64,000 nt of DNA. Source: an uncultured Bacillota bacterium (lineage in GTDB: Bacteria > Bacillota > Dehalobacteriia > UBA7702). Shown one piece after another: positions 3,137-14,790 of the stretch. Made by a program: the position numbers and the translations under genes. Where the stretch lies: contig CADBQN010000012.1 of the NCBI GenBank assembly GCA_902796855.1, positions 1 through 64,000 on the forward strand, written 5' to 3'. Position 1 is the stretch's first letter. Each line of letters begins with the position of its first letter. The notes beneath the pieces are model-generated. The model did no database searches and had not been told where the DNA came from. It saw nothing but the letters and a program-made list of their open reading frames with translations.

Positions 3137-3622
3137 ATGAACCTCTTAAAAAAATGTCTAAAATATATGACCATTATTTTAATTCCCCTGCTCTGCCTAA
3201 AAATGGCAAATCATTACATTTTAGGACAATCATACCATTTCGTAATCAAAATGATTCCCGTCTATTTCATCACCGCTCTTTTGCTCTTTATCGTCCTTCG
3301 CCCACGATACAAAAAATGGGAACCGTTCCTGTTTTTGCTGCCGCTGATTTATATATTCCCCTTTTGTCTGTATGCGACGACATATAATGATATATCCAAC
3401 TCTCAGCATCCCGCTGTTTTGTTTTTTTGGACAAAGATATTTATTCAGTTTTGGAGCAGTCAGCATTTCAGCTGTATGCTCTTTGCCGCGTATCTCGCCA
3501 AGTTCTGCGTTGATATTTGCCTGAACCTCCGCGACGCCGTCCGCGGGAAGAAGATCATCGACACCGCGGAAGAGGATGCGCCGCCGGTGACAGACACACA
3601 AAAAAAGGAGATTACACCATGA
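3137..3622 (+). CDS. Small membrane protein, paralogue 1 of 3 (function unknown)
   Basis: 161 residues, no family recognised. The N-terminus is a short Lys-rich start (MNLLKKCLKY) followed by a hydrophobic helix. Further hydrophobic segments lie at about residues 37-53, 61-80 and 95-120. The cytoplasmic-looking tail holds the motif LNLRDAVRGKK shared with the next two genes. The first two thirds are strikingly AT-rich for this genome. The stop overlaps the start of the next gene (ATGA at 3619-3622), indicating translational coupling. No signal for a particular function is visible. Confidence 0.75.
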   Translation: MNLLKKCLKYMTIILIPLLCLKMANHYILGQSYHFVIKMIPVYFITALLLFIVLRPRYKKWEPFLFLLPLIYIFPFCLYATTYNDISNSQHPAVLFFWTKIFIQFWSSQHFSCMLFAAYLAKFCVDICLNLRDAVRGKKIIDTAEEDAPPVTDTQKKEITP

Positions 3623-4095
3623 ACGCATTGAAACGCTGTCTCAGGTACCTGCTGATCGTTTTCGCGCCGCTGATCTGTTTAAAACTGGCCGCCGTTTTCA
3701 TCTCCGGGGCATATGACCGCACCGCGGTGCGGATGATCCTCATCTACAGCGTCATCCTTCTGCTGACGCTCCTCGTCGGACAGTGGCGGCTGAGGAAATT
3801 CGAGCTGCTGCTGCCGCTGATTCCGATGGCGGCCCTTTCCGTCCTCTGCGTCACGCCGCAGACGTTCAATACCTGGACGCTGGCCCCCTCCCCCTTCGGC
3901 TCCTACGTGATTTTTATGTTCACCCATTTTTGGGCCGGTCAGGGCCTGGCCTGCATGCTCTTTGCCGCCGGCCTCGTCAAGATCCTTCTTGACCTCGGCC
4001 TGAATCTCCGCGACGCCGCCCAAAAGGGGAAAGACGCGGAAACCGCCGCGGACGGCGGCGGGGAGGAAGAAACGGACGCGCCGGACATGGGTTAA
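3619..4095 (+). CDS. Small membrane protein, paralogue 2 of 3 (function unknown)
   Basis: 158 residues from the ATG at 3619, which follows AAAAAAGGAG and overlaps the previous stop. Same plan as its neighbours: MNALKRCLRY start, about four hydrophobic segments, then CMLFAAGLVK and LNLRDAAQKGKDAET. The acidic tail ends EETDAPDMG. The tail and the following non-coding DNA are nearly identical to those of the third copy, so copies 2 and 3 come from a recent duplication or a gene-conversion event. Confidence 0.8.
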   Translation: MNALKRCLRYLLIVFAPLICLKLAAVFISGAYDRTAVRMILIYSVILLLTLLVGQWRLRKFELLLPLIPMAALSVLCVTPQTFNTWTLAPSPFGSYVIFMFTHFWAGQGLACMLFAAGLVKILLDLGLNLRDAAQKGKDAETAADGGGEEETDAPDMG

Positions 4096-4173
4096 AGGAG
4101 CGTTTTCCCCGCGGAGCGGTATGTCGGCGATTGGCCGTGCCGTTAACGATTCACCGTACCGCGCGGGCAGGCC
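4000..4173 (+). repeat. Direct repeat unit, copy A (gene tail plus downstream DNA)
   Basis: About 170 bp covering the last ~30 codons of the second paralogue and ~78 bp of following non-coding DNA. It is matched by copy B at 4618-4787 with few differences. Similarity fades on into ttgcgg/cacctgttca remnants a little further downstream in both copies. Confidence 0.85.
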
Positions 4174-4254
4174 GAAAAGCCCCTGCATAAAAAAAGAGCT
4201 CTTTGCGGGAAAAGACCTGTTCAAACGATTTTCTATATAAAGAGAGGTTTTGTC

Positions 4255-4713
4255 ATGTCCGTTTTCAAACGCTGTCTCAAATACGCGGTCACGCTGTTAA
4301 CGCCTCTCGTGTTCCTGCTGGCGTCGGACGCCGTCTGCCGCAGTCACGGCGTCGTCATCCGGCTCACGCCGCTGATTTCCTTTTACGTCGCGACGTTTCT
4401 GGTTCTGTCCCTGATTTACCGCTGGCGGTTCAGGGGATGGGAGCTGATCATCCTCTTTCTGCCCCTGCCCTTTCTCCAGCTGTTCTGCGTGACGACGGAT
4501 TTTCACGATGCCCATGAGGCGCTCTATTCGTTCTTATACATCCATTTCGGGTTCTACCCATATAATTTCTGCATGATTTACGGCGCTTACCTGGGGAAAT
4601 TCCTCCTTGAAATCGTGCTGAACCTCCGCGACGCCGCCCGAAAGGGGAAAGACGCGGAAACCGCCGCAGACGGCGGAGAAGAGGAAGAAGCGGACGCGCC
4701 GGACATGGGTTAA
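4255..4713 (+). CDS. Small membrane protein, paralogue 3 of 3 (function unknown)
   Basis: 152 residues. It begins MSVFKRCLKYAV after an AGAGAGG ribosome site. Several hydrophobic segments precede the family tail LNLRDAARKGKDAET and the terminal DAPDMG. The gene is separated from paralogue 2 by 159 bp, unlike the overlapping first pair. No catalytic motif is visible. The hydrophobic middle differs strongly between the three copies while the ends are conserved, which suggests that the tail interacts with a common partner. That is inference only. Confidence 0.78.
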   Translation: MSVFKRCLKYAVTLLTPLVFLLASDAVCRSHGVVIRLTPLISFYVATFLVLSLIYRWRFRGWELIILFLPLPFLQLFCVTTDFHDAHEALYSFLYIHFGFYPYNFCMIYGAYLGKFLLEIVLNLRDAARKGKDAETAADGGEEEEADAPDMG

Positions 4714-4880: not shown

Positions 4881-4910
4881 GGGATCGCGGGCCTCCGGGC
4901 CTACGATCTC
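4881..4910 (-). terminator. Intrinsic terminator at the end of the aro operon
   Basis: Stem pairing gggatcg with cgatctc and an inner ggcct/ccgggcc helix, overlapping the aroQ stop. On the minus strand it is followed by CTTTTGT. On the plus strand a cttttt run also follows, so it may work both ways. Confidence 0.6.
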
Positions 4911-5353
4911 TTTTTGGTTTCCTTTTCCAAATACGCTTTCAAATACAGAATCGCTTCGCGATAGCCTTCAAAGCCCATGCCCTTGAACGTTTTGATACAG
5001 GCCATGCCGGGGTAGGAGACGCGTCGGAAGGGCTCCCTGGCGTCAACGTCGGAGAGATGCACCTCCACGGCGGGAAGGGCGACAGCTTTCAGCGCGTCCA
5101 GCAGGGCGATACTGGTGTGGGTGTAGGCGGCGGGGTTGATGACGATGCCGTCGCAGACGCCGTAAGCCGCCTGGATCTCGTCGACGAGGGCGCCTTCGTA
5201 ATTGGACTGGAAGATCTCGCATTCCAGCTCCTCCGCGGCGCAGACCGACTCGATGAAGCGGCAGAGCGCGCCGTAGCTCTCACCGCCGTAGATATCCGGC
5301 TCCCGAAGGCCGAGGAGGTTCAGGTTGGGGCCATTGAGGATCAGCAGTTTCAT
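4901..5353 (-). CDS. aroQ: 3-Dehydroquinate dehydratase, type II
   Basis: 150-residue enzyme converting 3-dehydroquinate to 3-dehydroshikimate. The type II start motif LLILNGPNLNLLG is present, with the active-site Tyr in the mobile loop (REPDIYGG), an Asn/His site in INPAAYTHTSIALLDAL, and EVHLSDVDAREPFR. It is the last gene of the aromatic operon and its start overlaps the stop of the aroE-aroK fusion (ATGA). Length is normal for the family. Confidence 0.97.
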   Translation of the reverse strand: MKLLILNGPNLNLLGLREPDIYGGESYGALCRFIESVCAAEELECEIFQSNYEGALVDEIQAAYGVCDGIVINPAAYTHTSIALLDALKAVALPAVEVHLSDVDAREPFRRVSYPGMACIKTFKGMGFEGYREAILYLKAYLEKETKKRS

Positions 5354-6579
5354 TCGATCACCTCCAGAATTTTAGCGACGGTCTCGGCCACATCGCCGTC
5401 GTTGGCGACGGTGACGTCGGCGAACCGCCGATACAGCGGTTCCCGGTACCGGGCGATGGCCGCCAGGTCACCGCTCTGCGAAAGGGGGCGTCCCGCCGTG
5501 GAGAGCCGTTCCAGCGGCCGGGTGACACGGATCAGCAGGCCGTTTTGGCTCAGGGAAGCCAGGTTCTCTTCACGAAGGACGGCGCCGCCGCCGGTGGCGA
5601 TGACAAGCCCCCGCTCCTTGCCGAGGGAGGCCAAAACGGCGCTTTCACGGTCGCGAAAGGCTTCTTCCCCCTCGGCGAGGAGTTCGCCGACGGCGCGGCC
5701 CGTCCGCCGTTCCAGTTCCGCGTCGCTGTCGCGGAAGGGGCGTCCCGTCGCCGCCGCCAGTTCCCGGCCGACGGCGGTCTTGCCGCAGCCGGGCATGCCG
5801 ATGAGGATCAGGTTCCGGTTACGGCGGCGAAGGGTCGCCACGATTTCCCCGATCCGTCCGCTCCGCGTCCCCGGCGGCTCCCCGTGAAATAGCTCCGAAG
5901 CGCGGACGGCCTGAGCCGCCAGCATCGTCAGGCCGCCGAAGACCGGGACGTTCCGTTCTTCCGCGGCCAGCATCAGCGATGTTCGCGCCGGGTTGCAGAT
6001 CAGGTCGAACACCGCCTCAAGGCCGGGGAAATCCGCCGGATCAACGAGGGTCGCCCCGTTGTTCGGGTACATCCCCACCGGCGTGGCGTTGACGAGAATC
6101 GCCGCGTCCCGCTGGGACGAGAGGTCCTTCAGGGAGACGGGGCCGCCGCGGGAGGCCATCGTCACCGACGCCGCGCCGAGATCGGCCAGGACGGCGGCGG
6201 CGGTCTTCGCCGCGCCGCCGGCGCCGAGGATCAGCGCCTTTTTGCCGGCGATGTCGACGCCGCTCTCATCGACCAGCCGGCGAAAGCCGAAAGCGTCGGT
6301 GTTGTCGCCATAGAGGGTGCCGTCCTCCCGGCGGAGGACGGTGTTGACGTTCCTCAGCCGCGCCGCCAGCGGCGAAACCTCGTCGCAGAGGGCAAAGGCC
6401 GTCTCTTTATAGGGAATCGTGACATTGACGCCTTTGAACGCGGCGTTTTTGAAAAAATCTTTCACCTCGTCCTCGTCGGCCAGCTCAAAAAGAGCGTAAT
6501 CAGCGTCGCCGAGGAGGGCGTGGATCGCCGGGGAATCGCTGTGGCCCAGCTTTTTGCCGACGAGGCCGAACCGCGCCAT
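5350..6579 (-). CDS. Bifunctional shikimate dehydrogenase / shikimate kinase (AroE-AroK fusion)
   Basis: 409 residues carrying two consecutive shikimate-pathway steps in one chain. Residues ~1-250 are AroE: substrate motif GHSDSPAIH, catalytic Lys in VTIPYKE, NTDAFGF, and the NADP-binding loop GAGGAAK. Residues ~255-409 are shikimate kinase: Walker A GMPGCGKT, DSDAELE, GGGAVLRE and GRPLSQSG. All key residues look intact in both halves. Two adjacent ATGs exist at 6582 and 6579; the second is better spaced from the AGGTGAT ribosome site. The gene overlaps pheA upstream and aroQ downstream. Confidence 0.95.
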   Translation of the reverse strand: MARFGLVGKKLGHSDSPAIHALLGDADYALFELADEDEVKDFFKNAAFKGVNVTIPYKETAFALCDEVSPLAARLRNVNTVLRREDGTLYGDNTDAFGFRRLVDESGVDIAGKKALILGAGGAAKTAAAVLADLGAASVTMASRGGPVSLKDLSSQRDAAILVNATPVGMYPNNGATLVDPADFPGLEAVFDLICNPARTSLMLAAEERNVPVFGGLTMLAAQAVRASELFHGEPPGTRSGRIGEIVATLRRRNRNLILIGMPGCGKTAVGRELAAATGRPFRDSDAELERRTGRAVGELLAEGEEAFRDRESAVLASLGKERGLVIATGGGAVLREENLASLSQNGLLIRVTRPLERLSTAGRPLSQSGDLAAIARYREPLYRRFADVTVANDGDVAETVAKILEVIE

Positions 6580-7721
6580 CATATCACCTCGCTGTAGCTG
6601 CCCAGATAGGCAAAGGTCTCGCAGTCGCGGCGAATCTCCCGCATCAGCCGCAGGAACCGCGGGGAATAGACGGAAGTTTCCAGATCAAAATAGAACATGA
6701 ACTCAAAATCGCGGTCGGGAATGGGGCGGCTTTCCAGCTTAATGAGGTTGATCCCCAGGACGTAGAGGCGAGAAAGCACCTTATAGAGGGCGCCGGGACG
6801 ATGGGGCAGCGTCAGCATGAGGCTGGTCTTGTCGGCGCCGGGGTAGATCTCCAGCTCCTTCGCGACGCAGATAAAGCGGGTGTAGTTGTTGTCCCGGTCC
6901 TGTACCGAATCGGCGAGACGGCAGAGACCGTACAGCGCGGCGCAGGCGCGGGAGGAGAGGGCGGCGACGTCGGTACGGCCGCTTTCCGCCACCATCTTCG
7001 CGGCGGCGGCGGTGTTGGCGCAGGGGATCACCTTGACTTCGGGGAACCGGCGCAGAAAATCGCCGCACTGGCTGATGGCCTGCTCGTGGGAATAGATCTC
7101 CCGCAGGCCGCCGAGGTCGGCGCCGGGGTTCGCCAAAAGGCTGTGGTCGACTTTGAGCCGGACGGCGCGGACGACGCGGAACCCCCCTTTGGCCATCAGG
7201 TCGTAAACGCGGTTCACCGAACCGGCGGCGCTGTTTTCCAGGGGCACGACGCCGTAGCGGCAGAGCCCCTTGGCCACGGCGGTGAACACCGCCTCAAAAT
7301 CGTCGAACCAGAGCACGTTGGGGGCGCGGAACAGCCGCTCGCAGGCAAGCTGGGAATAGGCTCCCTCCACGCCCTGGCAGGCGACGGAGGCGCTTTCCGG
7401 GAAGAGCGGCGGCGTCTTTTCGATGGCGCGGCGGATCTCGTCGGTGAGGGCCGTATCGCCGTCCAAAAGGACGCTCTGATAGCCGGAGCTGAGGTCGAAG
7501 AGAGACGAAAACAGCGTCATCGCGTATTCCCGCAGCTCCCCTTCGGTCTTTTCGCCGATCTCCGCCAAAATCTGCCGCTCCCGGGCGGCGTCGCGAACGG
7601 GGAGACCCTGTTCCCGCTTGACCCGGGCGATCTCGGCGGAGACCTCCATGCGCTCGGCAAAGACCGAGAGCAGCTCTTCGTCGATGTCGTCGATGCGCTC
7701 ACGCAGTTCCTGTAATTCCAT
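6579..7721 (-). CDS. pheA: Bifunctional chorismate mutase / prephenate dehydratase (P-protein)
   Basis: 380 residues directing chorismate to phenylpyruvate. Residues ~1-85 form an AroQ-type chorismate mutase (RERIDDIDEELL, AERMEVSAEIARVK). Residues ~110-280 are prephenate dehydratase: start CQGVEGAYSQLA, then VPLENSAAGSVN and the catalytic Thr region DRDNNYTRFICV. The C-terminal ACT domain carries LTLPHRPGALYKVL and the Phe-binding-type motif NLIKLESRPI, so phenylalanine feedback is expected. It lies 6 bp downstream of aroC. Confidence 0.96.
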   Translation of the reverse strand: MELQELRERIDDIDEELLSVFAERMEVSAEIARVKREQGLPVRDAARERQILAEIGEKTEGELREYAMTLFSSLFDLSSGYQSVLLDGDTALTDEIRRAIEKTPPLFPESASVACQGVEGAYSQLACERLFRAPNVLWFDDFEAVFTAVAKGLCRYGVVPLENSAAGSVNRVYDLMAKGGFRVVRAVRLKVDHSLLANPGADLGGLREIYSHEQAISQCGDFLRRFPEVKVIPCANTAAAAKMVAESGRTDVAALSSRACAALYGLCRLADSVQDRDNNYTRFICVAKELEIYPGADKTSLMLTLPHRPGALYKVLSRLYVLGINLIKLESRPIPDRDFEFMFYFDLETSVYSPRFLRLMREIRRDCETFAYLGSYSEVI

Positions 7722-7727
7722 AGGTTC

Positions 7728-8723
7728 TCATCCCTTCTTTTCCATTGACGCCAAAACGTCGTATACAGCCACCGCCGCCGCCGCTTCCACGCAGGGCACG
7801 GCCCGCGGCACGATACAGGGATCGTGGCGGCCGGCGACGGAGATCACCGTTTCTTTCATCGTTTCCAGGTCAACGCTCCGCTGTTCCGCGGCGATGGAGG
7901 GCGTCGGCTTGAACGCCGCCCGCAGGACGACGGCTTCACCGTCGGTCTTTCCCTCGCTGAAGCCGTTCTCCCGCGCCTTGCTGCCCTTGGAGACAGCGTC
8001 GCCGCCAAAGGACACGCCGCGGACGGCGGGGATGGCGAAGACCGCGTCGGCAACGCGGCTTTTAAGGTCGGGGAGACCGGCGGGAAGTCCGCTGAGGACG
8101 CACTCGACGACGCCGCCGACGGAATCCCCGGCAAGGCGGGCTTCGTCGATGACCGCCTTCATCGCCTCGGCCGCTCCGTCATCGACAGCGGGGAAATCCT
8201 TCGCCGCGACGGAACCGTCGAAGGCCGCGCCATCGGCGACGGCGCCGACGGAGAGGATCCGGCCGCGGACCGAGACGCCCCGCCGCTCCAAAAGCTGAAG
8301 GCAGACGCCGCCGGCGACACAGAGCGCCGCGGTGAGCCGCCCGGAAAAGTGACCGCCGCCGGCACTGTCCTGAAAGCCGCCGTACTTCAAAGCGGCGGTG
8401 TAATCGGCGTGACCGGGCCGGGGGATCCGGGCGTAGGGCGCGTAATCGGCGGAGCGGGTGTTCGTGTTGAGCAAAATCGCCGTCAGCGGCGCGCCGGTGG
8501 TAACATCGCCGCGGAGACCGGAGAGGAACTCCGGCCGGTCATCCTCCCGCCGCGGCGTGGAAAAGCGGTTCCGCCCCGGGGCCCGGCGCTCCATGAACCG
8601 CGCCAGCGCCGCCATATCCAGCGTCTCCCCGGCGGGGAGCCCCGCAAGTGTCATGCCGACGGCCCTGCCGTGGGACTGACCGAAGATCGTCAGGCGGATC
8701 CGTTCACCGTAGGTACCGCTCAT
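7728..8723 (-). CDS. aroC: Chorismate synthase (short form lacking a conserved loop)
   Basis: 331 residues, about 30-60 shorter than most AroC proteins. It should convert EPSP to chorismate with reduced FMN. The N-terminal signature ([11 protein letters not shown]), the central [10 protein letters not shown] and the C-terminal [17 protein letters not shown] are present, as is AAFKPTPSI. The stretch before AAFKPTPSI, where relatives carry a TN-x-AGGI-x-GG loop, is replaced by a shorter sequence without that motif ([13 protein letters not shown]). The reading frame is open, so this is not a frameshift. Activity is likely but worth testing. It is positioned between tyrA and pheA. Confidence 0.9.
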
Positions 8724-8762: not shown

Positions 8763-9596
8763 TCATTGTCCGTCCACTTCCTCTTTGCGCCGCCGTCCCT
8801 CGTCCAGCAGGGCGGCGAGACCGTCGCGGTCTTCCGCCCGCAGCGCGGCACGGTAGCGTTCCATCTGCTCCATAAAGGCGTCCAGCTCCGTAAGGAGACA
8901 GTCGCGGTTATCGAGAAAGAGCTCCGCCCACATATCCGGGTTCAGCCAGGCAACGCGGGTCATATCCTTGTAGCTTCCGGCGGAAAAGCCCTTGTGGCCC
9001 CGGGCGGCGGGGCTCTTGATATAAGCGTTGGAGACGACGTGAGCCATCTGGGAGGTGAAAGCGATCATCGCGTCGTGGGACGCGGCGTCGGTCACCGAGA
9101 CCCGGCCGAACCCGGCGGGGGCCAGCAGCGTCTTCACCCGGTCCAGCAGGCGGATGTCGTCAAAATCCGGCGGCACCAGCACCATCGGCGCGCCGCGGAA
9201 GAGATCGGCCCGGGCGTGCTTGAAACCGGCGTGATGGGTGCCGGCCATGGGGTGGCCGCCGACGAAAGTAAAGCCATACGCCTCCGCCAGGGGAAAGGCC
9301 TCCCCGCAGACGGCCCGTTTCGTGCCGCAGCAGTCGACGACCACGGGCTTTGGACCGAACCGGGGCGCCGTCTTTTTCAGGTAGTCCACGGCGGCGGCGG
9401 GGCAGACGGCGATGAGGACGAGGTCGCACCCGGCGACGTTCTCTTCATCCAAAACGCCGTCGATGCCGCCGCTGAGCAGGGCGAAATCGAGCATTTCTTT
9501 GTCGATGTCAAAAGCCAGCACCTTCGCTCCCGCCGCCTTGTAGGCCAGGGCGAAGGAACCGCCGATGAGACCGATGCCGACGATACCGATGTTCAT
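8763..9596 (-). CDS. tyrA: Prephenate dehydrogenase
   Basis: 277-residue NAD(P)-dependent enzyme committing prephenate to tyrosine. The Rossmann motif [13 protein letters not shown] is at the N-terminus, the catalytic His region is [12 protein letters not shown], and the helical C-terminal domain includes [15 protein letters not shown] and the SYKDMTRVA segment. No ACT domain is attached. The start overlaps the aroF stop by four bases. It belongs to the aro operon. Confidence 0.95.
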
Positions 9597-10597
9597 TGGT
9601 TCACGACCCCCCTGACGACGGCGACGTCCCTGGCGAGGGCGTCATATTCCTCGGGACGCAGCGACTGGGCGCCGTCACAGAGGGCGTGGAGCGGGTCGTT
9701 GTGCACCTCGATGATGAGGCCGTCGGAGCCGCAGGCCGCCGCCGCCAGCGCCATGGGACGGACGAGACGGGCGATGCCCGTGGCGTGGCTGGGGTCGACG
9801 ATGACCGGCAGATGGGTCAGCTCGTGGAGCATCGGCACGGCGGCGAGATCCAGCGTGTTGCGGGTGTAGTCGTCAAAGGTGCGGATGCCCCGTTCGCAGA
9901 GAATGACCTGCTCGTTGCCGCCGGCCATGATGTATTCGGCGCTCATCAGCAGTTCTTTCAGGGTGTTGGCGAGGCCCCGCTTGAGGAGGATCGGCTTGCG
10001 GATCTTCCCCAGTTCCCGGAGGAGGTCAAAGTTCTGCATGTTCCTGGCGCCGACCTGGATGACGTCGACGTCCTCAAAAAGGGGCAGATGGCTGACGCTC
10101 ATGATCTCGGTGACGATGGGCAGGCCGGTCTCGGCCCGGGCCAGTTTCAGGAGCTCGATACCGGTGGCCTTGAGGCCCTGGAAGTCGTAAGGCGACGTCC
10201 GCGGCTTGAAAGCGCCGCCCCGCATCATGTCGGCGCCGGAGGCCTTGACGGCCTTGGCCACGGCGACGATCTGTTCCTCGGACTCCACCGAGCAGGGCCC
10301 GGCGATCATCGCGAAATGGCCGCCGCCGACTTTGACGCCGCCGACCTCGACGACGGTATCTTCGGGATGGAACTTGCGGTTGCAGCACTTAAAGGACTCC
10401 GAGACCCGCTTCACCGAATCGACGATGCCCAGGGAGCCGATGAGCTCCATATCGACGTTGCTGACGTCGCCGATGAGGCCGAGGACGGTCTGGAACTCCC
10501 CTTCGGAAACGTGGATGCCGAGGCCCTGTTCCTTCAGCCAGTCGACGAGCTGATCTCTCTTTTCGCGCTGTACTCCGTTTTTCAAAATGACGATCAT
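9593..10597 (-). CDS. aroF: 3-Deoxy-7-phosphoheptulonate (DAHP) synthase, type I-beta with N-terminal regulatory domain
   Basis: 334 residues, the first committed step of the shikimate pathway. An N-terminal ferredoxin-like regulatory domain (about residues 1-70) precedes the catalytic barrel. Barrel motifs include [49 protein letters not shown] and DPSHATG. The ATG at 10597 follows GGAGGTG. The frame is open further upstream but runs through the attenuator, so a longer protein is rejected. It is the first structural gene of the operon. aroA and aroB are not in this operon. Confidence 0.96.
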
Positions 10598-10673
10598 GCT
10601 ATCGCACCTCCGTAGAAAATGGTAAAGGGTGAAAAACAAACAAATCGGTTCGCGGCGACAAATGCCGCCTATG

Positions 10674-10706
10674 AAAAAACGGCACAAGTTACAGTAACTT
10701 GTGCCG
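10674..10706 (-). terminator. Attenuator terminator in the aro operon leader
   Basis: Perfect 13-bp inverted repeat (cggcacaagttac / gtaacttgtgccg, 10680-10706) followed on the minus strand by TTTTTT. It lies between the leader peptide and aroF. Its 5' arm (10694-10703) can instead pair with 10738-10747 (GTAATTTGTG against CACAAGTTAC, ten pairs including one G-U). That would be the antiterminator. Confidence 0.9.
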
Positions 10707-10736
10707 CAATCATCATTTCTGACTCTTATTTCCGCA

Positions 10737-10811
10737 TCACAAATTACCCTTACCAAGACGTGTGGTAAAGTAATAATCATACAGGCTGTCAAAAATAAGA
10801 GTACGTGTCAT
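10737..10811 (-). CDS. Aromatic leader peptide for attenuation of the aro operon
   Basis: 24-codon open frame, too short for usual gene calling: start at 10811, stop TGA at 10737-10739. Residues 11-15 read Tyr-Asp-Tyr-Tyr-Phe and residue 7 is Phe, giving five aromatic codons in 24. A GAGGA ribosome site precedes it and a perfect sigma-A promoter lies about 35 bp upstream. The stop codon sits inside the antiterminator strand (10738-10747). A ribosome finishing the peptide would block antitermination, whereas one stalled at the Tyr/Phe codons would leave it free. This is the logic of trp/phe-type ribosome-mediated attenuation; the mechanism is inferred from sequence. Confidence 0.85.
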   Translation of the reverse strand: MTRTLIFDSLYDYYFTTRLGKGNL

Positions 10812-10845
10812 CAGATGTTCCTCATCCGCTCAGAATTTTCATATT

Positions 10846-10874
10846 ATTATAGTCGATTCTGCCGATGTTGTCAA
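10846..10874 (-). promoter_or_regulatory. Consensus sigma-A promoter of the aro operon
   Basis: Minus strand: TTGACA (10869-10874), 17-bp spacer, TATAAT (10846-10851). Both hexamers match consensus exactly. Predicted start is near 10839, 28 nt before the leader peptide. Confidence 0.92.
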
Positions 10875-10953
10875 TAGGTTTTTTCCCGGAAACGTGAAAT
10901 ATTTTCCAAACGGTTCGGCGCGCCGCGAAACAGAACGGGTTTAAACAGGTACT

Positions 10954-11613
10954 TTATTGTGACACACGCTTTTTCCGCCTGTCGACGGAGGCGATCATAT
11001 CGCCGATCTCGCCGATGTCTCCGCAGGTGCCGTCGGCGCCGACGGTGAAGCAGAAATCCGAGGTAACGGGATTGCCGCCGATGATGACTTTCACCGAGGA
11101 ACGGAGGTTTTCGGCTTCGAGGGCGTCGAGAATACTGCCGATTTCATTGATGGTCGTCGTCAGCATCGCCGAGATGGCGACGTATTCCGGGCGGCAGCGC
11201 TTGACGGCGGCGACAAAATCCTCGGGGTAGACATCGATGCCGAGGTCGACGACATTCCAGCCGAGGCTCGTCAGCGTCATCGCCACAAGGTTTTTGCCGA
11301 TATCGTGGAGATCCCCGGCGACGGTGCCGATGACCACGGTGCCGCGCTTTCCCGCCTCACCGTCGCTCAAACAGGGTTCCAGGACATGGAGCCCGGCGTG
11401 GACAGCCCGGGATATAATGATGACATCGGCGATGAACACCTCGTTGTTCCGGAGCTTCTCGCCGATGATGGTGAGAGGCGGCAGCAGCCCTTCGTGAAGG
11501 ATTTTTTTCGGGTCGGTGCCGTTGCTCAGCGCCATTTCCGTCAAAAAACGGACTTTGTTGGCTTCCCCTTTGAGGACCGACTGAACAATCATTTCGATGG
11601 CGTGGTCTTCCAT
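10954..11613 (-). CDS. Corrinoid protein of a methyltransferase system (MtaC/MttC family)
   Basis: 219-residue methyl carrier. A helical cap domain (about residues 1-85) is followed by the cobalamin-binding Rossmann domain. That domain holds the base-off motif GDLHDIGKNLV, whose His is the lower cobalt ligand, plus AISAMLTTT and VIIGGNPVT. It receives a methyl group from a substrate-specific MtxB enzyme and passes it to an MtxA enzyme. Fourteen bp separate it from the PocR/AraC regulator, and mtaB lies upstream in the same direction, so methanol is the likely methyl donor. The ATG at 11613 follows AAAGGAGAAAAC. Confidence 0.9.
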   Translation of the reverse strand: MEDHAIEMIVQSVLKGEANKVRFLTEMALSNGTDPKKILHEGLLPPLTIIGEKLRNNEVFIADVIIISRAVHAGLHVLEPCLSDGEAGKRGTVVIGTVAGDLHDIGKNLVAMTLTSLGWNVVDLGIDVYPEDFVAAVKRCRPEYVAISAMLTTTINEIGSILDALEAENLRSSVKVIIGGNPVTSDFCFTVGADGTCGDIGEIGDMIASVDRRKKRVSQ

Positions 11614-11626
11614 AGCGTTTTCTCCT

Positions 11627-12937
11627 TTATTCCGCCGGGATCTGTTTCTTTTTATAATCCCTGGGGGTAATCCCTTCCGATTTCTTAAACACCCGCGAAA
11701 AATAGCTGACATCCTCAAATCCGGAATCCAGAGCCACTTCACTGATGGAAAGCCCCTGCTTTGCCAGAAGGGACTTGGCGTATTCAATGCGGATGGAGGT
11801 CAGGTACTCGGTGATGGTGCGGCCGAAAGTCTCGCTGAAGATATGGCTCAGATAACTGTCACTGAGGTGGACACTCTCGCCGATGTCGTGAACGGAAATG
11901 CGCTCCTTAAAGTGAGCGCGGATGTATTCCGCCGCGGCGTAGGCCGCCTGGAAATTATCTTTGTTGGCGGCGGCGCGGACTTCCTCGGTGTAGATGCCGA
12001 CCACCTTTTTTGTCCAGTAACAGATTTCCTCGGTGGTCTCCTTTTGATAGAGCTCCTCGTAAAAGCGGCTGTTGAGCCGGGCCATATCCTCCTCGTTCAA
12101 TCCGCCGTCCACCGCCGCCCGGGAGAGGGCGACGAGGAGCTCCACGACGCGGCCTTTGACGTCGGGGACGCTGCCGCCGCTGTGGAGGATGTCGATAAGG
12201 AGGTCGTCGAGGCGGGAACCGACGGTTTCCGCGTCGCCGCCGCGTATTCCTGAAATCAGGGCCCGTTCCTTATCGCGGACAACGCTGTGGCGGCCATCGC
12301 CGCCGACGGGGAAAAAGCCGCGGAGCTTTTTCCTGGCGGCGATGCTGTCGGAGAGAGCCGCCTGATAGGCGGACATGCTTTTCTGCTCCGAAAAAACACT
12401 CCCTTCCTCATTCATGATCTGATTGGCGATAACGAACAGCAGCTCGGAGATGGCCTGCACCTTGTCGCCGGAGAGGTAGTTCAGTTCCAGCGCCGCCTGT
12501 TTCACGGCGCTGAGATCGACATCGAGGCCGTGGACCATCATCGTGATCTCATCGAGGAAATAATCCTCAATCTCCCACATCAGCACCTGCCCGCAGATGA
12601 TGGCGCAGCGGTGATTCTGAATCATGATCGGCACCGCCCAGGCCACAAGACCGGCGTGACAGCGAAAAACATAGGGCTCGCCGTATTTGGCGGCTTCCCG
12701 GTTGGCCCGGGCGTAGGAACGGCAGCATTTGCGCCGGCCGATGGGGTCTTTTTTGATCAGGCGGCAGAAAGCGCAGTCTTTCACCTGGTTTTCCGTGGAA
12801 ACCAGGGTCACGCCGCAGTCGTCGACGAGCTCCGCTTTGAGACCGCTGACAACGGAAAAATAACGGAGCGTTTTTTCCAGGGAGGTCTTCTCATCACCAC
12901 TGTCCAGCCAGGCGGGACGGTATAACACATCTGTCAT
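11627..12937 (-). CDS. AraC-family regulator with PocR sensory domain
   Basis: 436 residues. The N-terminal PocR domain (about residues 15-170) has its characteristic cysteines (KDCAFC, RKCCRSYA, FRCHAGL). In characterised relatives such domains respond to small organic ligands. The C-terminal two helix-turn-helix units of AraC type are at about 335-432 (ISVHDIGESVHLSDSYLSHIF, split here by family convention into two helices, and SEVALDSGFEDVSYFSR). It sits between mtaB and the corrinoid gene, so it most likely controls this methylotrophy operon. The ligand could be methanol or a related compound; that is inference. Confidence 0.9.
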   Translation of the reverse strand: MTDVLYRPAWLDSGDEKTSLEKTLRYFSVVSGLKAELVDDCGVTLVSTENQVKDCAFCRLIKKDPIGRRKCCRSYARANREAAKYGEPYVFRCHAGLVAWAVPIMIQNHRCAIICGQVLMWEIEDYFLDEITMMVHGLDVDLSAVKQAALELNYLSGDKVQAISELLFVIANQIMNEEGSVFSEQKSMSAYQAALSDSIAARKKLRGFFPVGGDGRHSVVRDKERALISGIRGGDAETVGSRLDDLLIDILHSGGSVPDVKGRVVELLVALSRAAVDGGLNEEDMARLNSRFYEELYQKETTEEICYWTKKVVGIYTEEVRAAANKDNFQAAYAAAEYIRAHFKERISVHDIGESVHLSDSYLSHIFSETFGRTITEYLTSIRIEYAKSLLAKQGLSISEVALDSGFEDVSYFSRVFKKSEGITPRDYKKKQIPAE

Positions 12938-12972
12938 CGGAATCCACCTCTTTTCGGCTCCTTTTCTAACCG

Positions 12973-13093
12973 CGTTTAGGAAGGCACGCGAAAGCGCGCC
13001 TTCCTAAACGTATGGAGGGATTTTTGGAGCGGCGCGAAACGCGCCGTGGTTTATGGAAGCGGCTCGGGGAGAGTCTTCCGCACGCGAAGCGTG
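12973..13093. repeat. Three consecutive GC-rich hairpins between mtaB and the regulator gene
   Basis: 12973-13010 has 12-bp arms (cgtttaggaagg / ccttcctaaacg). 13030-13046 has cggcgcg-aaa-cgcgccg. 13081-13093 has cacgc-gaa-gcgtg. None is followed by a U-run on the minus strand, so they are more likely RNA-stability or processing elements than terminators. Confidence 0.6.
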
Positions 13094-13115
13094 TCAGAAA
13101 GCCGGGCCTTTTCAA

Positions 13116-14492
13116 TTACATATCGTACTGTTCGGGAACAAACGCCGCCGTGGTGTTGTTTTTGATCATTTCGGCGGTAAAGGCTTCCTCATCGTCGGTG
13201 ACGGAGAGCATCTGCTGTTCCATGATATCGAGATAGGCGGCGTCGCGGTCGCTGAGCGCGACTTCTTTGGCGGCATAGGCTTTTTTCAGCGCTTCGATGG
13301 CGGCCAGCGCCGCCGTCTTTGTTCTTTGGAAATGGCCTTTTTCGGCGACGATTTTACCGGCGATGTCCACGACGACCTTGGGATCGAGGATATAGGCGTG
13401 GGGATCCAAAGCGGCGTCGGAAGCGACAAAGATTTCCTTCAGCTCCTTCGCCTTCCCCAGTTTTTTGGCGGTGTTCATCATGCGGCAGTCATAAATCAGC
13501 TGTTCGGCGTAAACCGTTGGCGCCATCCCGCCGAGCATGCGTGTATTCTCGACGCTCTCGTTGCTCCACATATCGCACATGGCGCCGACGATGTTGCCGA
13601 CGGTGGAGCTGTGGGCGCAGGCCGAGGTGCGGCCTTCCATGGAGATCGGCGTACCGGTGATGGCCTTAACGTAGACGCCCTCATAGCCGCAGTCCTTGTC
13701 GGGACCGGTGGCGCCGGCTTCCACCGCGGTCATGGTGCGGACGGCGGTCATTACGCGGTCCACGGCGGCAAAGGAACGGGGGATCAGGCCGCGGTTGGCC
13801 AGCACCATGCCGGTGTTGGAAAAGCCGCAGGCGGTGTCGCCGGCGGAAATGGAGCCGGTTTCCTCGGCGATGTTGGTAATGGCTTCCCAGAGAATCCCCA
13901 TATCGCGGCAGCCTACCACACCGAGAGCAAAAAGGATTTTCGGCAGATCGCACATCATCAATGCGTCGTCGTGGAGGTGCTTGCCGCCGATGGACTCAAT
14001 GGCAAGGAAATCCGCGCCGGTCTCACCGGCGCCGCGGAACGTTTCCATCACCGCTTCCCACTGTTTGCCGTGATACATATGTTCCAGGTCGCGTCCCTCA
14101 CGGATATCGACGGGGGTAAGACGGACGACGGTTTTAATGCCGTATTTGGCCTCGTATTCCTTGACGATGTCGACGACGGTTCTGTTGACGTCGATGCCCC
14201 ATTGGGGGTTCATCGTACAGGGGGGAAGGATCTCAATTTCAAAGCCCATGGCCGGAGCGCCGAGCTCCACGGCTTTTTCGCAGGCGCCGGTGGCGATATC
14301 CTTATAGTGCGCCAGCACCTTGGGCATGGTGGCGTCGGAGATGGTCATCATCGGCAGCGTGAAATTCAGCTCGGGGACGACGTCGCCGCCGCCGATGACG
14401 AGGCCGTTTTTGCAGGTGACGGGGTGAAGGGCTTCACCAAAGATCAGCTCGTCAGCGTTTTTGAAGGCCAATTCGTTAAACTCTCTTCTCAT
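13116..14492 (-). CDS. mtaB: Methanol:corrinoid methyltransferase
   Basis: 458 residues, close to the ~460 of MtaB. The enzyme uses zinc to activate methanol and methylates its cognate corrinoid protein. The candidate zinc ligands are Glu in AIESIGGKH, Cys in VVGCRDMG and Cys in GDTACGFSN. The ATG at 14492 follows GAAAGGAG. The next genes are a PocR/AraC regulator and a corrinoid protein, which fits the MtaBC module. No MtaA (methylcobamide:carrier methyltransferase) is in the window. It is preceded by an unusual structured leader. Confidence 0.88.
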   Translation of the reverse strand: MRREFNELAFKNADELIFGEALHPVTCKNGLVIGGGDVVPELNFTLPMMTISDATMPKVLAHYKDIATGACEKAVELGAPAMGFEIEILPPCTMNPQWGIDVNRTVVDIVKEYEAKYGIKTVVRLTPVDIREGRDLEHMYHGKQWEAVMETFRGAGETGADFLAIESIGGKHLHDDALMMCDLPKILFALGVVGCRDMGILWEAITNIAEETGSISAGDTACGFSNTGMVLANRGLIPRSFAAVDRVMTAVRTMTAVEAGATGPDKDCGYEGVYVKAITGTPISMEGRTSACAHSSTVGNIVGAMCDMWSNESVENTRMLGGMAPTVYAEQLIYDCRMMNTAKKLGKAKELKEIFVASDAALDPHAYILDPKVVVDIAGKIVAEKGHFQRTKTAALAAIEALKKAYAAKEVALSDRDAAYLDIMEQQMLSVTDDEEAFTAEMIKNNTTAAFVPEQYDM

Positions 14493-14790
14493 TATAAAAA
14501 ATCTCCTTTCGGCCGCGCGGCCGAAAAACAAGGCGGCGCAGCGCTTTTTGTTTTTTCTCTCTCTTTTCCGTCCGAATCGCGGGAAATTCGCCTCTATGGG
14601 GACTTTTCTTTTTTCCGGAGATATGTTATAATGACGTATCTTCGGAAACAGGGGTACGGGAAAATCCTCCTTTCTGAAGATCGGGTAAAATTTTGCTGCA
14701 ACAAAATTTTACATGGGATAGAAGTTTTTTGGACTCCAAAGAACTTCTATTTTTTTTACCGTTTCCTCATGTTCTAAAAATATTATACCA
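14493..14790 (-). promoter_or_regulatory. Promoter and structured 5' leader of mtaB
   Basis: Minus strand: extended -10 TGGTATAAT (TATAAT at 14782-14787) with no clear -35, then a leader of about 280 nt. It holds hairpin 1 (arms 14718-14726 and 14742-14750, with a further inner helix) and hairpin 2 (11-bp arms 14685-14695 and 14702-14712). A longer-range ATCTTC/GAAGAT pairing and a GC-rich ggccgcgcggcc palindrome lie near the ribosome site. It does not match the cobalamin riboswitch as far as I can see. Confidence 0.5.

Follow-up and report, generated by a model that had tools for sequence, protein, structure and literature searches.

Leader-peptide attenuators of the kind found at pheA, pheST, trp and his in Proteobacteria place a codon run over the first of four RNA strands, which can form the mutually exclusive pairings 1:2, 2:3 and 3:4, the last being an intrinsic terminator. 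For aromatic biosynthesis in Bacillota, T-box control has been described, e.g., in the tyrosine operon of the Bacillus cereus group (PMC2494555). Leader-peptide precedents in the phylum include hisS/hisZ of bacilli (PMC2965389) and a Leu-rich ribosome-type attenuator at ilv-leu in Staphylococcus aureus (PMC5794164), both on genes that bear T-boxes in other phylum members. The closest precedent is the uORFC-13-1 motif, which precedes aroF and has been described only from Acholeplasma and from environmental sequences (PMC8632094). Ribosome-mediated attenuation, which a sequence-only reading of the present DNA had called notable for Bacillota, is thus uncommon but not unprecedented in the phylum (PMC2965389, PMC5794164, PMC8632094).

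The locus analyzed here lies in a 64,000-nucleotide stretch (the window) of contig CADBQN010000012.1 from an uncultured Bacillota bacterium. Both strands of the region were read, and the aro operon, ordered aroF-tyrA-aroC-pheA-aroEK-aroQ by NCBIfam naming, and all of its leader elements are on the minus strand (Table 1). Judged by these elements, their conservation, the covariation seen in each of the two exclusive pairings and the folding predictions, all of which are evident from the sequences, the whole operon is very probably controlled by a ribosome-mediated transcription attenuator that senses charged tRNA-Tyr and tRNA-Phe. The logic is common to the Proteobacterial attenuators, from which the window leader differs in combining Tyr and Phe codons, in targeting the common pathway together with both branches and in belonging to another phylum; an Rfam search found no similarity to them. 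The hisS/hisZ and ilv-leu systems share with it the ribosome-type device but concern other amino acids, genes and lineages (PMC2965389, PMC5794164), while the T-box of aromatic genes likewise attenuates transcription in response to tRNA charging but involves neither ribosome nor leader peptide (PMC2494555). Rfam 15 gave no match here. The likeness to uORFC-13-1, compared by description, extends to an upstream ORF with at least one Phe codon, a terminator, a DAHP synthase target and an adjacent promoter; that motif differs in having a U run that gives Phe, with no Tyr run reported and no antiterminator switch demonstrated (PMC8632094).

Table 1. Features of the aro leader and operon in the window (positions in the window; SD, Shine-Dalgarno sequence)
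Feature	Position	Strand	Evidence or remark
Sigma-A-type promoter	10846..10874	-	-35 TTGACA 10869-10874, 17-nt spacer, -10 TATAAT 10846-10851
SD GAGGA of leader ORF, 7 nt upstream	10819..10823	-	Sequence
Leader ORF, 24 codons + UGA, MTRTLIFDSLYDYYFTTRLGKGNL	10737..10811	-	Sequence; sister genome has MKRDVIFGHWYGYFTARDGKGNL in equivalent place
Outer helix, 5' half (leader codons 4-7)	10793..10802	-	Exact 10-bp complement of 10722-10731; forms in no-ribosome fold
Codons 11-15 (Tyr Asp Tyr Tyr Phe), proposed stall site	10767..10781	-	Tyr-Phe core invariant at bases 1 and 2 in 24 aligned relatives
Strand 1 (protector 5' arm), overlaps aromatic codons	10762..10777	-	MFE fold; swap test 1:2
Strand 2, GGTAAGGGTAATTTGTGATGC	10734..10754	-	Pairs with strand 1, or via GTAATTTGTG(A)TGC with strand 3
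Outer helix, 3' half, lengthens 1:2 stem	10722..10731	-	Exact 10-bp complement; in untranslated fold
Strand 3, terminator 5' arm, GCGGCACAAGTTAC	10694..10707	-	Covaries with strand 2 and with strand 4
Strand 4 + U6 tract of intrinsic terminator	10674..10692	-	Terminator scan, -19.0 kcal/mol
SD GGAGG of aroF	10607..10611	-	Sequence
aroF, DAHP synthase (3-deoxy-7-phosphoheptulonate synthase), operon gene 1	9593..10597	-	NF006421, E 2e-142
tyrA, prephenate dehydrogenase	8763..9596	-	NCBIfam, E 6e-45
aroC, chorismate synthase	7728..8723	-	TIGR00033, above cut-off
pheA, chorismate mutase-prephenate dehydratase	6579..7721	-	NCBIfam, E 3e-63
aroE-aroK fusion, shikimate dehydrogenase/shikimate kinase	5350..6582	-	NCBIfam
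aroQ, type II 3-dehydroquinate dehydratase	4901..5353	-	NCBIfam

The promoter proposed in the sequence-only reading matches the consensus at 12 of 12 positions; promoter-like sites matching at 9/12 or better are expected 0.7 times in shuffles of the region. The 24-codon frame that it had described is also present. It is a short ORF preceded by a Shine-Dalgarno sequence and carrying codons for the very amino acids that the operon produces, and we infer that this ORF is translated.

Leaders of this type were sought at 80 AroF loci from named genomes (62 to 82% identical to the query) plus genus and class loci. The named relatives are mostly Bacillota-type metagenome-assembled genomes and isolates, among them Oscillospiraceae, Ruminococcaceae, Angelakisella, Sporobacter termitidis and Emergencia, with a few oddly named ones (Treponema, Lentisphaerae) that are possibly mis-binned; tyrA is downstream of aroF in 71 of the 80. 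ORFs in which six or more of nine residues are Tyr or Phe were found in 67 of 109 AroF-upstream regions versus 29 of 2180 shuffles, and when both a Shine-Dalgarno sequence and an ATG start were required the counts were 63 and 3, respectively. Among the named relatives, 66/79 have a Shine-Dalgarno-preceded leader with at least four Tyr/Phe in nine residues, and no leader was visible in 9/79. When the genus and class loci are counted too, there are 78 such Shine-Dalgarno-preceded leader peptides; Tyr and Phe occur together in every one of them (means of 3.8 and 4.5), and Trp is present in only seven. Conservation of the aromatic codons and of the stems in relatives, on which the earlier reading had staked its proposal, is borne out: the first two bases of each codon of the Tyr-Phe core, TAC-TTT, are invariant in an alignment of 24 members, and helices 2:3 and 3:4 both covary (see below). 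A second leader subtype was also observed upstream of AroF (L029, L031, L132, L134, L136 and L141), in which a segment like FYFFSAGxF comes after the Tyr/Phe run.

The end of the leader ORF varies. The UGA of the window leader does sit within the antiterminator strand, as had been pointed out, but this position is common only to the sister species and is not conserved beyond it. Most of the aligned subgroup stop at a UAA that precedes a UUUGUG motif by about 9 nt; in others the stop codon lies 11 to 35 nt downstream of this motif, so that strand 2 is translated. The strand 2 RNA, GUAA..GUGAUUYGUGCUGCA, is part of the reading frame in long leaders (L048, where it is read as ..VIRAA.., L070 and L093) and follows the UAA stop in short ones (L051, L069 and L075). 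By these stop positions, a single RNA strand is predicted to be translated in one of two different frames or not to be translated, and the switch persists in each case.

These comparisons bear on a different kind of sensor, namely a leader peptide that arrests the ribosome in a sequence-specific manner, as TnaC or Erm leaders do, and responds to a free amino acid or other ligand, the RNA switch that follows being unchanged. Contact of a Tyr/Phe-rich nascent chain with the exit tunnel is conceivable, and a Phe-Ala-Ala motif recurs in many of the leaders. The folds, however, account for the latter otherwise, because the GCNGC codons of the motif pair with GCUGC of strand 2. Moreover, the peptides vary freely except for Tyr and Phe, these two residues swap between relatives, and the peptide ends differ, to the point that one and the same RNA stretch is read in more than one frame. 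We therefore regard specific peptide arrest as unlikely, and stalling at Tyr and Phe codons for want of charged tRNA remains the preferred reading of the leader ORF.

Downstream of the leader ORF, and before the first structural gene, is the intrinsic terminator that had been claimed from the sequence, at 10707-10679 (-), with T6 directly after it. The two arms are perfect 13-mers that flank a single base, which as a physical hairpin amounts to 12 Watson-Crick pairs plus one G-U and a 3-nt loop, and it is presumably functional. The alternative helix pointed out previously, 10738-10747 with 10694-10703, is also there: ten pairs, nine of them Watson-Crick and one G-U, with three more possible past a mismatch, at -14.5 kcal/mol (p = 0.0015 versus shuffles of the spacer). 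This antiterminator (2:3) is exclusive with the terminator (3:4) and is conserved, the strand 2 motif GTAATTTGTGNTGC being retained and the strand 3 motif GC-GCACAGGTTAC recurring among relatives. A protector stem (1:2) overlaps the regulatory codons according to the folds and the swap test described below. The second 10-bp pairing of the sequence-only reading, between 10722-10731 and 10793-10802, is an exact match that is seen in the untranslated fold, but rather than having the separate scaffold role suggested there it appears to extend the 1:2 stem outward; a comparable helix, though not the same in sequence, exists in the sister species. The whole leader folds with a z score of -4.9 relative to dinucleotide shuffles.

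Both exclusive pairings are supported by covariation in the 24-sequence alignment. For the antiterminator, 89% of cells are paired (68% in the best slid version), and changes on both sides affect 5 pairs and 20 cells compared to shuffle means of 2.5 and 6.9; none of 500 shuffles reached that cell count. For the terminator, 92% are paired, both-side changes affect 7 pairs, and the cells so changed number 27 against 8.0 in the mean of the shuffles. Strand 3 hence covaries with two mutually exclusive partners, strands 2 and 4, which is what an attenuator predicts. Because the shuffle control leaves relatedness in, a swap test was added in which the strands of each locus were paired with those of other loci. 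Over 75 loci, this gave z values of -15.8 for 1:2, -3.7 for 2:3 (p = 2e-4) and -28 for 3:4, while the negative control, 1:3, was not significant (p = 0.13); the pattern also held in 30 non-redundant loci. The swap test is what supports 1:2, as this helix had no covariation excess in the 24-member alignment, probably due to the coding constraint on strand 1 and to shifts of the pairing register between subgroups. Shuffling the loci one by one was a weak test of 2:3 (12/78 below 0.05), since GC-rich arms pair with any long spacer.

The conserved leader ORF and pairings also weigh against a plain terminator for the upstream corrinoid-protein gene (10954-11787), after which the aro genes would be transcribed constitutively and the short ORF would be accidental. 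That gene indeed shares the strand of the operon, and about 250 nt separate its end from the terminator. The 12/12 promoter, however, lies between the two, and in the sister genome the leader is kept although the sequence upstream differs, making this explanation very improbable. Judged from sequence, the upstream genes at 10954-14531 (-) encode a corrinoid-binding protein, an AraC-type regulator and a methyltransferase-like product, and look like a methanol/methylamine-type methyl-transfer cluster.

No Rfam 15 family exceeded its gathering score in the window leader or in the leaders of 20 relatives, and no T-box (RF00230) was matched in 10560-10900 at E values up to 10. The T-box search does work, as it detected seven T-boxes elsewhere in the genome (contigs C30, C2, C53, C80, C37 and C31; loci L085-L091), none of them on the aro operon. 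Going by putative names from ORF reading, these precede a sodium/solute symporter, thrS, cysE, a homocitrate/isopropylmalate synthase-like gene, glyQ, an indolepyruvate oxidoreductase-like iorA and serS. It is thus hardly credible that the sensor is a T-box, a metabolite riboswitch or a TRAP-type RNA-binding protein, even though T-boxes exist in the genome and precede AroF in some phylum members, given the lack of any above-threshold family or low-stringency T-box match in the leader, the absence by eye of a TRAP-type repeat and a conserved part that consists of the coding run and the switch strands, with no aptamer-like domain. When 40 AroF loci were drawn from across the phylum, a T-box was present at five, all of which lack a strong Tyr/Phe leader; this small sample suggests that the two devices substitute for each other.

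Under ribosome-mediated attenuation, RNA polymerase would start about 30 nt upstream of the leader ORF. With Tyr-tRNA or Phe-tRNA in short supply, the ribosome would stall at codons 11-15 and cover strand 1, so that strand 2 is free to pair with strand 3 while strand 4 has yet to be synthesized; no terminator would form and the aro genes would be transcribed. With both tRNAs in the charged state, the ribosome would reach the UGA within strand 2 and cover this strand, allowing the 3:4 terminator to form. An untranslated leader would adopt 1:2 plus 3:4, so that transcription would stop in this case too. The signal in this scheme would be tRNA charging.

Folding the ribosome-free RNA of the window for each ribosome position reproduced these states. 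With codon 11, 13, 14 or 15 in the A site, the probability of 2:3 before strand 4 exists is 1.00, whereas with the ribosome at the stop codon it is 0.00 and the terminator forms; in the untranslated RNA the terminator likewise forms, with P(2:3) of 0.00 before strand 4. The earlier proposal that a finished peptide gives termination and a Tyr/Phe stall gives read-through is therefore matched at the level of the model, in which a stalled ribosome frees strand 2 and a terminating one covers it. At thermodynamic equilibrium the terminator always wins, meaning that antitermination would have to be kinetic, as it is in known attenuators. The relatives agree: sequestration of the terminator arm rises by more than 0.2 on going from the stop to the stalled state in 51/75 loci and falls in 2/75, part of this gain being trivial because more RNA is free, and the stalled state exceeds shuffled spacers in 67/75 loci (p = 2e-12). 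In many relatives, part of strand 2 would stay exposed when the ribosome is at the stop codon.

A covariance model searched over 399 phylum genomes found only six, indicating that the sequence-conserved form is confined to a subgroup; the leader type is broader. No description of the aro leader element was found in the open-access literature searched, and priority is uncertain. Overall, the element appears to be genuine and widespread among gut-type Bacillota, and to be an instance, apparently not yet described, of a classic type of control. It is somewhat more likely than not, in addition, that it belongs to a large attenuator family, itself undescribed, which in much of the Clostridia-type Bacillota serves as the main control of DAHP synthase-tyrA operons and alternates there with T-boxes, with strand 2 read in different frames or left untranslated according to lineage and the switch preserved. 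As the mechanism is a textbook one, the surprise is limited. What it would extend is the reach of leader-peptide attenuation, which would then include aromatic biosynthesis in a large set of gut and uncultured Bacillota for which T-box or protein control is usually assumed, and it would supply an RNA family new to Rfam together with numerous small leader genes. Among cultured relatives, Sporobacter termitidis, Angelakisella massiliensis and Emergencia are clear targets for finding out how ribosome attenuation and T-boxes replace each other.

The amino acid specificity of the leader fits the gene content of the host. No TrpE/PabB homologue was detected in the genome, which is 98.4% complete, while the same family was detected in 14/14 control genomes; this negative result suggests, by gene content, tryptophan auxotrophy beside a complete Tyr/Phe branch, in keeping with a leader that has Tyr and Phe codons and none for Trp. 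A check for a Trp-codon leader on trpE was void for the same reason. Elsewhere in the window, on the plus strand at 3137-4713, there are three tandem related ORFs resembling small membrane proteins (161, 192 and 152 amino acids), which have similar ends (..NLRDA..) and are apparently duplicated.
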